Virus record (IMG/VR): IMGVR_UViG_3300017758_000097
Span: 1 to 26,929 of that record
Length of the DNA: 26,929 bases
Direction: 5' to 3' (one strand)
Source of the DNA: a virus
The notes beneath the pieces are model-generated. The model did not search any database, had not been told where the DNA came from, and saw only the letters and a list, made by a program, of their open reading frames with translations. Shown here one piece after another: positions 3,613-7,316 of the stretch. The translations under genes and the position numbers were made by a program. The first letter of the stretch is position 1; each line of letters begins with the position of its first letter.

Positions 3613-3842
3613 TAGAATTCTCCATCATCATGTGAAATTGTAAGGTAAACTTGCAATGCTTCACACCAACATAGCAAATTAAATAGTTTTGGCTCAACAA
3701 GTTTACGTTCCCATTGACCAAACAACTTTGTGTTTATACCAATAGTCATAGCTAATTTTTCCTGCGATATCTTACGTTCTTGTCGCAGTAATATTAGCTT
3801 ATCTATCAGTGATATGTATTGATATCGTACTGTGTTTTGCAT
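3612..3842 (-). CDS. XRE-type helix-turn-helix regulator (76 aa)
   Basis: Residues about 13-62 match a Cro/CI-type HTH: LILLRQERKISQEKLA (first two helices), then IGINTKLFGQWERKLVEP (turn and recognition helix), then a hydrophobic helix. It is likely a DNA-binding repressor or modulator of early transcription. The start is uncertain. ATG 3842 (MQNTVRY) lies just after a 13-bp hairpin; ATG 3863 (MRGYTKA) lies inside the hairpin; neither has a clear binding site. I prefer 3842. The gene is followed at once by the coiled-coil gene (TAATG). Confidence 0.65.
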   Translation of the reverse strand: MQNTVRYQYISLIDKLILLRQERKISQEKLAMTIGINTKLFGQWERKLVEPKLFNLLCWCEALQVYLTISHDDGEF

Positions 3843-3851
3843 AGCTTTAGT

Positions 3852-3885
3852 GTAGCCACGCATCAAGGAGAAGATGCGTGGCTAC
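3852..3885 (-). promoter_or_regulatory. Perfect 13-bp hairpin before the XRE-like gene
   Basis: The arms 3852-3864 and 3873-3885 are perfect inverted repeats (GTAGCCACGCATC), with an 8-nt loop. No T-run follows on the minus strand, so a simple intrinsic terminator is unlikely. It lies between the 90-aa gene and the regulator gene and covers one possible start codon of the latter. It could be an operator, an RNA processing site or an attenuator. On the minus strand the loop reads TTCTCCTT, complementary to the AAGGAG binding sites of this operon. Confidence 0.6.
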
Positions 3886-3903
3886 TACCCAACCAACTAG
3901 GGT

Positions 3904-5576: not shown

Positions 5577-6158
5577 TTATGATTTCGCTAGTGCCTTGTC
5601 TTTGGCAGTAACTTTCTTCTTAGCTACAGTAGGCATTGGTTGTTTCGCCAACTTGTACTGTTTCTTGTTTATGTACCACTCTATGCCGTAGTTTGGTTGT
5701 ACCTTACCATTCTCCGTTGCCCAATCATAACCCATGATCTTAGTGAAGAGGGTAGTGAATTGATCATACAGTGCCTTACATAATTCGTATTTGTCTTGAG
5801 CCATCATGTATGCAATCTCAACATATGTACCACGAACCTCATCTGCTGACAGTCTTTCGACGTCTTGATTGTAGGTGTATTGTGTACGATCAAGATAATC
5901 TTTAGCAGATTTGAGAGAGTATGCAGTAGATAGTGACATACCTCCGTAGATTAGAAACAGATCCAAGTTGTATTTTGGATTCTCCATACGTTCGGACTGT
6001 TGTATACCAGTCTTTGAGTATGATGTTTCTCGTTGTGTACCATCAGCATTCATTGGTCGGTCGATAAGAAAGTTGTCGACGTCGTTGAATAGTGAATCAG
6101 GTGTTTCACTTAGTAGTACGTTAGATAGTTCAGTTATGTTTTTAAATGTATTTTTCAT
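5577..6158 (-). CDS. Hypothetical 193-aa protein, monocistronic
   Basis: I do not recognise it. The start at ATG 6158 (MKNTFKNITELS) is chosen for the AAAGGA about 9 nt upstream; in-frame codons further upstream would intrude into the RNA-like region and lack a binding site. The protein is helical, with tyrosine-rich segments (TQYTYNQDVERL, GIEWYINKKQYKL) and a lysine-rich tail (KKKVTAKDKALAK). It has its own terminator and is not packed with the early operon, so it is probably expressed under a separate leftward promoter within 6160-6500. A DNA-binding or early take-over role is possible from the basic tail, but no domain is visible. Confidence 0.65.
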   Translation of the reverse strand: MKNTFKNITELSNVLLSETPDSLFNDVDNFLIDRPMNADGTQRETSYSKTGIQQSERMENPKYNLDLFLIYGGMSLSTAYSLKSAKDYLDRTQYTYNQDVERLSADEVRGTYVEIAYMMAQDKYELCKALYDQFTTLFTKIMGYDWATENGKVQPNYGIEWYINKKQYKLAKQPMPTVAKKKVTAKDKALAKS

Positions 6159-6180
6159 GATTTGATTCCTTTCATATATC

Positions 6181-6507
6181 ATGGTTAATGTATGTACTAA
6201 ACAAAAACTGCAAAGTACGATATCACTCGTCACACTTAGTCAAGTGCGATAGTCGGCTTGCCGATAATGCGAACCAACATATCTCACAGACATGACTATT
6301 GAAACGGGGTGAAGCATTACACTTTACAAGTGTGGTAAAATAACAGAGGCGTTTTGCAGTTTTTGTGCCTCGCAGAGTAAAGGGAGTGTGCGAAGAGAGG
6401 GATATTGTCGCATGAAGAGTCAAGAGATCTGGGCGATCTTCAGATCTTTTGATCCTCGAAATACGAATGTGTTTAGAGGATTCACAGTCATTGGTATCAT
6501 TAACCAT
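6181..6507 (+). ncRNA. Candidate 327-nt structured RNA closed by a perfect 10-bp helix
   Basis: 6181-6190 (ATGGTTAATG) pairs perfectly with 6498-6507. Inside are helices 6191-6197/6215-6222 (one bulge), 6233-6237/6242-6246, 6253-6256/6261-6264 with a CUUG tetraloop, 6316-6324/6328-6336 (9 bp, two U-G), 6346-6352/6365-6371 (two wobbles), 6387-6393/6408-6414 (two wobbles), 6421-6431/6441-6451 (11 bp, one G-U) and 6452-6457/6476-6481. All wobbles are G-U on the plus strand and would be A-C on the minus strand, so a plus-strand RNA is inferred. An open minus-strand frame here (6223-6507) has an unprotein-like composition and no binding site. RNA class unknown. Confidence 0.55.
6209..6223 (+). repeat. 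15-bp element, copy 1 (TGCAAAGTACGATAT)
   Basis: This 15-mer recurs at 7214-7228 with one C-to-T change. One copy lies in the 5' part of the structured RNA candidate and the other in the gap after the small terminase gene. Both sit in noncoding sequence. A shared transcription signal is possible but unproven. Confidence 0.45.
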
Positions 6508-6576
6508 TGTTTATTATATGTAATCATGAATTGTTATGGTGTGATCTCACCAGTCTGTCTGTGAATCCCTGCGACC

Positions 6577-6707
6577 CAAATGCCTTGAACACCGAGCAAA
6601 TGCAAGAGGGGAAGAGGTTGGGCTACTAGCGATAGTTAGCCTTGTTCTTACAAGGCTTACTCTTAGCTTGTAGGGGAACTCTTGCATTTGTGAATGGGCA
6701 TGGCATT
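6577..6707 (+). ncRNA. Candidate structured RNA 3 / late leader with alternative hairpins
   Basis: Nested helices: 6579-6584 with 6702-6707 (6 bp), 6597-6608 with 6679-6690 (12 bp, perfect), 6623-6630 with 6666-6673 (one T-T mismatch) and hairpin 6638-6645/6650-6657 (8 bp). A competing hairpin, 6621-6628 with 6633-6641, has a GCGA (GNRA) tetraloop on the plus strand and shares bases with the last two. Mutually exclusive helices are a feature of regulatory leaders. It lies upstream of the promoter at 6765, so it is either a separate RNA or the DNA structure of an origin or operator. The stretch 6508-6576 shows only a small hairpin (6538-6541 with 6548-6551). Confidence 0.45.
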
Positions 6708-6764
6708 AGGCACAGTGTACATGGAGGTGAAATGTCCAATAAATACAAGGTGTTACAAATGCCC

Positions 6765-6793
6765 TTGACAAGCATTTGATTAGTGTTCATAAA
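6765..6793 (+). promoter_or_regulatory. Sigma70-like promoter for the late (virion) genes
   Basis: A perfect -35 TTGACA (6765-6770), a 17-nt spacer and CATAAA (6788-6793, 4 of 6 match to TATAAT). It is the last signal before the rightward gene block and lies 22 nt before the proposed start of the small terminase. The -35 overlaps a CAAATGC/GCATTTG inverted repeat (6756-6762 and 6772-6778), a possible operator. Transcription would begin near the G-runs at 6795-6809. Confidence 0.55.
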
Positions 6794-6814
6794 AGGGGGG
6801 TAAGGGGGGATCTC

Positions 6815-7186
6815 TTGTTAACACAGATTAGATTGACCAAGAAACAAAAACTACTTGTTGATACGATCGTAGCAACTGGTTGTAGTGTAACAGATGCTAG
6901 TGTCACTGCAGGATATGCCAAAGGTGAATCAGGAAGAGTGACAGCCAGTAAGACTTTGCGACTGCCTCATATCCAAGAGTATATGCAACAAAGAGTGAGA
7001 GAAAGTATTGGATTGAATGCTACGAAAGCCTCGAATAAGATGCTTGAGTTAAGTAGTAGCGCTAAGAGTGAGTACGTGCAGTTAGAAGCTAGTAAGGATA
7101 TACTAGATAGAGCAGGATACAAACCAATAGAGAAGTCTATGAACTTAGTCACTGGTAATATAAATGTTAGTATAGACTTGACATAA
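6815..7186 (+). CDS. terS: Terminase small subunit
   Basis: A 123-aa product if translation starts at TTG 6815, which follows AAGGGGGGA with 5 nt spacing. The frame is open back to 6776, but that would begin upstream of the promoter -10. The N-terminal part matches small-terminase HTH proteins: LTKKQKLLVDTIV, then VTDASVTAGYAK, then TLRLPHIQEYMQQRV, followed by a helical linker and a second segment LEASKDILDRAGYKP. TerS recognises the phage packaging site and regulates the large subunit. It is the first gene of the rightward block, separated from terL by several small genes. The family pattern is clear, the start less so. Confidence 0.75.
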   Translation: MLTQIRLTKKQKLLVDTIVATGCSVTDASVTAGYAKGESGRVTASKTLRLPHIQEYMQQRVRESIGLNATKASNKMLELSSSAKSEYVQLEASKDILDRAGYKPIEKSMNLVTGNINVSIDLT

Positions 7187-7213
7187 ACAGATGTGTAGAG
7201 CTACAGATATAAA

Positions 7214-7228
7214 TGCAAAGTATGATAT
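7214..7228 (+). repeat. 15-bp element, copy 2 (TGCAAAGTATGATAT)
   Basis: Second copy of the element at 6209-6223, differing by one base. It lies in the 122-nt gap between terS and the next gene, shortly before a G-rich run (7233-7254). TATGAT at 7221-7226 resembles a -10 box, but no matching -35 lies at the right distance. Confidence 0.4.
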
Positions 7229-7247
7229 ACTAGGGGTGGGGGTAAAA

Positions 7248-7316
7248 ATGTGGGCGAGTACTACTACAACACCTCTCATACAAACATTATTCTTTAAAAA
7301 GGTACGTTATGGCTAA
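7248..7316 (+). CDS. Possible 22-aa leader peptide
   Basis: An ATG at 7248 follows GGGGG with 5 nt spacing and opens a 22-codon frame (MWASTTTTPLIQTLFFKK and four more residues) whose stop overlaps the start of the next gene by 8 nt. It would couple translation into that gene. Length is too short for a firm call and the G-run could serve other purposes. Confidence 0.25.
   Translation: MWASTTTTPLIQTLFFKKVRYG

Follow-up and report, generated by a model that had tools for sequence, protein, structure and literature searches.

A Covarying Multidomain RNA Precedes the Small Terminase Gene in Marine Phages Related to Pelagibacter Phage Hodr

Introduction

What occupies the long noncoding gap that precedes the small terminase gene (terS) in a marine tailed phage? 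The DNA analyzed here (26,929 nt, IMG/VR record IMGVR_UViG_3300017758_000097; hereafter the 26.9-kb window) covers part of the genome of a marine tailed phage. This phage is a relative of Pelagibacter phage EXVC031P Hodr, which was the only entry of the phage collection to match its TerS (57% identity; 65% for TerL). On the left side of the window, the minus strand encodes a RecE-like exonuclease, and on its right side the plus strand encodes the small and large terminase subunits, a head-tail adaptor, the major head protein and tail genes. An earlier note, made without database searches, had proposed that positions 6181–6507 specify a dedicated 327-nt plus-strand RNA, closed by a perfect 10-bp helix, of no recognized class but similar in principle to GOLLD. 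Here, we compared this region with its relatives, redefined the structure, and weighed what kind of RNA it may be.

Results

The Noncoding Gap Upstream of terS

A noncoding gap from 6159 to ≈6800 separates the terS operon from a divergently oriented leftward gene, which had no PHROG match (Table 1). About 600 nt of noncoding DNA lie between the start of the leftward gene (6158) and a promoter-like site made up of TTGACA (6765–6770), a 17-nt spacer and CATAAA (6788–6793). Of 88 relatives, 59 have this site in its strict form, and TTGACA was retained there in most of the remainder. The ORF caller placed the terS start at 6776, inside the site, with the −35 box on one side and the −10 box on the other; based on the promoter position and on relatives beginning at the same residue, the TTG at 6815 is the likely start. 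A protein-coding reading of the gap was rejected, as the longest open stretch changes its strand, frame and length from one relative to another, and indels are not in triplets. No terminator was found in 5900–7300, and consensus scans for a promoter of the RNA itself yielded only weak, inconsistent matches, none of them clear.

Table 1. Features of the RNA region and its flanking genes (positions in the 26.9-kb window).
Feature	Position	Strand	Basis
Divergent leftward gene, 193 aa	5577–6158	−	Homologues adjoin the RNA in relatives; left border of noncoding gap
Putative promoter position and RNA start	6159–6198	+	Weak, inconsistent promoter-like matches
Domain 1 core	6199–6377	+	Covariation (alignment A2), model R1
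Domain 1 outer helix	6201–6214/6353–6366	+	Alignment A2
Domain 1 long-range helix, bulged A and constant C-U mismatch	6231–6246/6320–6334	+	Alignment A2
Domain 1 hairpin, CUUG loop	6252–6265	+	Alignment A2
Domain 1 helix	6266–6270/6314–6318	+	Alignment A2
Domain 1 constant segment UGUGCCUCGCAGAG	6364–6377	+	Alignment A2
Domain 1 tail, pseudoknotted	6407–6452	+	Alignment A5
Middle hairpin, closed by 6478–6490/6556–6568	6478–6568	+	Inverted repeat, 13 nt, 92% complementary
Domain 2	6578–6717	+	Covariation (alignment A6), model R2
Promoter-like site of terS/late operon, TTGACA-17-CATAAA	6765–6793	+	Downstream of the RNA
terS, small terminase subunit	6815–7186	+	phrog_2538, E = 2e-13

Covariation and Architecture of the RNA

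Relatives were collected from IMG/VR through relatives of TerS and by pattern searches, the depth of the alignments being bounded by that database, and ≈20 distinct contigs were found to carry the same RNA. Domain 1, aligned in 14 sequences, had 94.6% canonical pair cells and double changes in 17 of its 33 pairs. Neither value was reached in any of 500 shuffles, and pairing with slid partners gave far lower values of 36–48%, so that covariation stood above the controls. A model of domain 1, R1, recovered L028/L029/L071, L095, L196, L092 and L094, all left out of its training, with E-values from 1e-16 to 3e-7; on other TerS loci it found nothing convincing. In a 25-sequence alignment built with R1, and hence biased towards it, 97.3% of cells were paired, with double changes in 22 of the 33 pairs. 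The outer helix is re-written across branches, reading ACAAAAACUGCAAA/UUUGCAGUUUUUGU in the window versus ACACGUGGGGAA/UUCCCCACGUGU in L039.

Downstream of the domain 1 core, a tail stem (6420–6431/6441–6452) carries loop bases (6432–6437) that pair back with 6407–6412, forming a pseudoknot. This block was 92.8% paired (double changes in 9 of 18 pairs), and in L196 a G-C pair replaces a C-G pair inside the pseudoknot. Domain 2, which was 95.8% paired (double changes in 10 of 22 pairs), is formed by helices at 6581–6587/6699–6705, 6598–6608/6679–6689 and 6623–6626/6670–6673, among which a constant internal loop, GGGGAAGAGGUUGGG/GGGGAA, is enclosed, and it includes a variable hairpin at 6634–6645/6650–6661. 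The corresponding model, R2, recovered L028, L071 and L095, all from outside its training set; the matches of both R1 and R2 in such relatives occupy the same location. For the tail block and domain 2 as well, none of 500 shuffles equaled the covariation, and slid partners scored much lower. Between the two domains, the middle hairpin was compared by eye in L006 and L091; the surrounding region, 6456–6580, had a fold z-score of −3.6. The region is almost certainly a real structured RNA, and its helices suggest a length of about 520 nt, from ≈6199 to at least 6717.

Folding energy by itself is insufficient to decide whether such an RNA is real. A scan in 150-nt windows did not single out the region, because its helices are long-range. 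The strongest fold-energy outlier of the whole 26.9-kb window was 3751–3900 on the minus strand (z = −7.1), which spans a perfect 13-bp inverted repeat, GTAGCCACGCATC...GATGCGTGGCTAC (3855–3889). This repeat lies where a small gene of the minus strand, with a helix-turn-helix-like sequence, begins, and it might serve as an operator or as a hairpin that controls translation.

The pairings described in the earlier note are present in the sequence, and positions 6181–6507 fold better than shuffled sequences on both strands (z = −6.1 for plus, −5.0 for minus), but two of the helices were unsupported in relatives. Positions 6181–6190 are an exact inverted repeat of 6498–6507 in the window. However, all relatives that differ there have either lost the 3′ arm of this 10-bp closing helix or carry one that is not complementary, and complementarity among relatives was at the level of shuffled sequences; in the window, the same arm also sits inside the competing middle hairpin. 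Likewise, the 9-bp stem at 6316–6336 was 57% paired, at shuffle level, with no double changes, and is lost in relatives, its 3′ side pairing instead with 6231–6237 in the long-range helix. Compensation was seen in the core, in the CUUG hairpin (6253–6264; pairing in 100% of cells, 2–3 doubly changed pairs) and in the 11-bp stem (6421–6451; pairing in 96% of cells, 6 doubly changed pairs). These last two helices were thus correctly recognized in the earlier note, which gave coordinates for three of its eight interior helices, so that not all eight can be identified. The 327-nt unit itself has to be replaced by the conserved structure from ≈6199 to ≈6717, which adds the pseudoknot, the long-range helix and the second domain.

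Strand of the RNA

Consensus folding energies favored the plus strand in two of three blocks (−12.5 vs. −8.0 and −33.1 vs. −25.2) and were equal in the third. For domain 1, minus-strand folding was as good as plus. There were 34 G-T cells vs. 3 A-C cells, and the corresponding test per pair (11 vs. 3, p = 0.057) was marginal. The plus strand, as proposed earlier from wobble pairs, is therefore favored by the consensus folding and the G-T excess and is likely the strand of the RNA, although it is unproven.

If the minus strand were transcribed, the structure would be a long 5′ leader of the leftward operon. Domain 1 does travel with the leftward gene, the minus strand folds well too, and the constant AGTCAAGGG reads CCCTTGACT there, a −35-like box. 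Against this arrangement are the preference of the consensus folding, the ratio of G-T to A-C cells, and the presence of domain 2 beside a very different left gene in L016 and L025. We regard a minus-strand leader as highly improbable.

Searches for Known Families and Further Homologues

No Rfam family matched the window or 20 relatives at the gathering score. When the threshold was relaxed to E = 5 for positions 6100–6850, a single chance match to SNORA19 appeared (E = 2.5), and ten relatives searched up to E = 0.1 gave no match. The GOLLD and ROOL covariance models found no member in the window or in the relatives scanned, and the window contains no tRNA or tmRNA near which such an RNA could lie. 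The Rfam comparison called for in the earlier note, together with the covariation in ≈20 distinct relatives, thus strongly supports its view of a dedicated, structured phage RNA outside the known classes. The literature searched contained no description of this RNA.

DNA similarity searches returned just two 44-nt matches (E = 0.07) in the phage collection and none in plasmids, and the domain 2 motif was absent from 84,980 bacterial and archaeal species genomes. A search with the leftward gene added a single new partial contig, L215. L100 and most matches from two of the searches with short patterns were counted as chance.

In L101 (3707–3825) and L102, a hairpin sharing the AGTCAAGGG/CCCTTTACT core of domain 1 was observed in unrelated DNA, with a different outer stem (GCAGACCGGAA/TTCCGGGATGC). 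L101 was missed by R1, and the kinship of these arm-like hairpins with domain 1 is only suggestive and may be due to chance. Beside the hairpin in L102 is an insertion that begins like a group II intron (GTGCGAC).

Variation of the Locus among Relatives

The gap upstream of terS is strongly folded well beyond the contigs that share this RNA. In 58 non-redundant relatives, the mean z-score of the gap (the last 360 nt before the promoter region, or the whole gap if shorter) was −5.4, compared to −0.15 for coding DNA, represented by 23 windows of 360 nt, all from the present 26.9-kb window (MWU p = 2e-11). The gaps sort into ≈14 groups by blastn, a grouping by sequence similarity that may split highly diverged copies of one RNA. 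In L015, L020, L024, L041, L046 and L047/L048, a different module, CUAGGUnnUAG...nnACGCUU, precedes terS. Its enclosing 12-bp outer helix is fully complementary in three versions, and the nn positions co-change. Domain 1 co-occurs with a leftward gene of the type found in the window, and L016 and L025 combine domain 2 with other modules and their own left gene. The locus therefore appears to host interchangeable structured RNAs.

Several other structures were noted in these gaps. L092, L094, L095 and L028 keep the domain 1 helices, and inspection by eye indicated a candidate H-type pseudoknot just downstream, in which a hairpin loop would pair with the sequence directly 3′ of it; compensation, also judged by eye, was seen between GGTACTTT/AAAGTACC in L095 and GTTCTT/AAGAAC in L092. 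A further noncoding module, GGAAGnnGTnAGnCTGACnGAnAGnGTAGTTT, is common to L016, L017, L025 and L030. In Hodr itself (OQ414635.1; L099:5657–5960), the noncoding gap ahead of terS is unannotated and folds into a very stable hairpin structure of another kind (z = −8.1).

Discussion

The covariation raises the question of how this RNA is made and used. We lean slightly towards a stand-alone, trans-acting, multidomain noncoding RNA transcribed from the plus strand. Transcription would start at a promoter in the short space to the right of the leftward gene, and the RNA would end short of the terS/late operon's own promoter. During infection, it would act in trans as a folded scaffold that binds host or phage partners, which might be a protein, the ribosome or copies of the RNA itself, and its modules would be exchanged because these binding partners evolve quickly. 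Two points make us favor the stand-alone form: terS has a promoter-like site in front of it, and the modules are larger and turn over more than known leader elements would need. The large, abundant RNA that phage ICP1 makes from an ORF-less gap (PMC7567579) offers a parallel. Against this reading, the lack of a recognizable terminator and of a clear promoter for the RNA calls independent transcription into question.

The same arrangement could also be read as a cis-acting leader of the late operon, in which transcripts begun upstream continue through the fold to terS and the genes of the virion, with the structure controlling transcription or translation; in one variant, transcription would be controlled by antitermination, as with the put RNA of phage HK022. 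The RNA shares the strand of terS and invariably comes immediately before it, in the same position in dozens of relatives, and no terminator was found in between. However, the conserved promoter-like site separates the RNA from terS, and 350–1000 nt of exchangeable modules are far more than leader elements of the put type, to our knowledge, require. A leader is the chief alternative, though an unlikely one, and stays under consideration because neither a terminator nor a clear promoter of the RNA was recognized.

The divergent arrangement of the genes, and the GC-skew minimum of the window at 5858, close to the gap, would also fit a role in genome replication, either as a ColE1-like structured primer RNA or as an origin between the divergent operons. 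However, divergent transcription alone yields such a turn in skew, and neither iterons nor other origin features were present among the direct repeats, which makes this role very unlikely. Packaging sites lie upstream of the terminase genes in some phages, and the region, being directly upstream of these genes, might be a cos or pac signal with hairpins acting as DNA, or encode an RNA part of the packaging motor. Yet the G-U and compensatory changes, the conserved pseudoknot and the constant internal loops are what is expected of an RNA, and the sequence does not persist across relatives, unlike terminase recognition sites, which as a rule are conserved. A packaging function is accordingly the most doubtful of the readings considered.

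There is about an even chance that, in this large group of marine phages, the space in front of terS is set aside for structured RNAs that are modular and evolve fast, with new RNA domains (domain 1, domain 2, CUAGGUnnUAG/nnACGCUU, the H-type pseudoknot and others) mixed and swapped like cassettes among relatives. Such cassette exchange would point to the host exerting strong pressure on these phage RNAs to diversify, and if so, the RNAs might have a role in evading defenses or in taking over host machinery. The literature searched offered no precedent for a fixed locus at which RNA modules are exchanged. Only a small number of large structured RNAs have been described from phages, and what they do is an open question. 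The present work adds a set of new phage RNAs, defined at the base-pair level by covariation and residing at one fixed locus, from marine phages related to an isolated phage of SAR11 (Pelagibacter). The many natural variants make function testable, and the module swaps in relatives reveal the parts that can be exchanged.

If the leader reading were right, the RNA would resemble HK022 put as a phage RNA structure upstream of an operon. The put element is a short structure of two hairpins; here, there are several hundred nucleotides of modules, followed by a further promoter-like site. The pRNA of phi29 is likewise a structured phage RNA with a possible location close to packaging functions, but its motor has no classical small terminase subunit, whereas this phage has both TerS and TerL and its RNA had no Rfam match.

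GOLLD and ROOL are large, elaborately folded and pseudoknotted RNAs of phages and prophages, of unknown function (PMC12286853). The likeness to GOLLD drawn in the earlier note is of this general kind: the present RNA is also large, ornate, pseudoknotted and phage-borne, with an unknown function, but it matches no Rfam model and has no tRNA nearby in the window. It also differs in its fixed place before terS, where neighboring relatives carry unrelated RNAs. GOLLD and ROOL are often located near tRNA genes, and GOLLD is typically over 800 nt long; the present RNA is shorter. Assembly into homo-oligomeric cages is a further mark of the GOLLD and ROOL families. In Vibrio phage ICP1, RNA-seq revealed an abundant noncoding RNA of ≈800 nt, transcribed from a ≈1-kb gap devoid of ORFs, with no tRNAs nearby and no known function (PMC7567579). 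By description, our RNA resembles it in being large and in lying in a long ORF-less gap with no tRNA nearby. The ICP1 transcript, for which we know of no covariation model, adjoins the lysis cluster, whereas the RNA described here precedes terS. By analogy, its mode of working may be similar to that of GOLLD and ROOL or of the ICP1 transcript.
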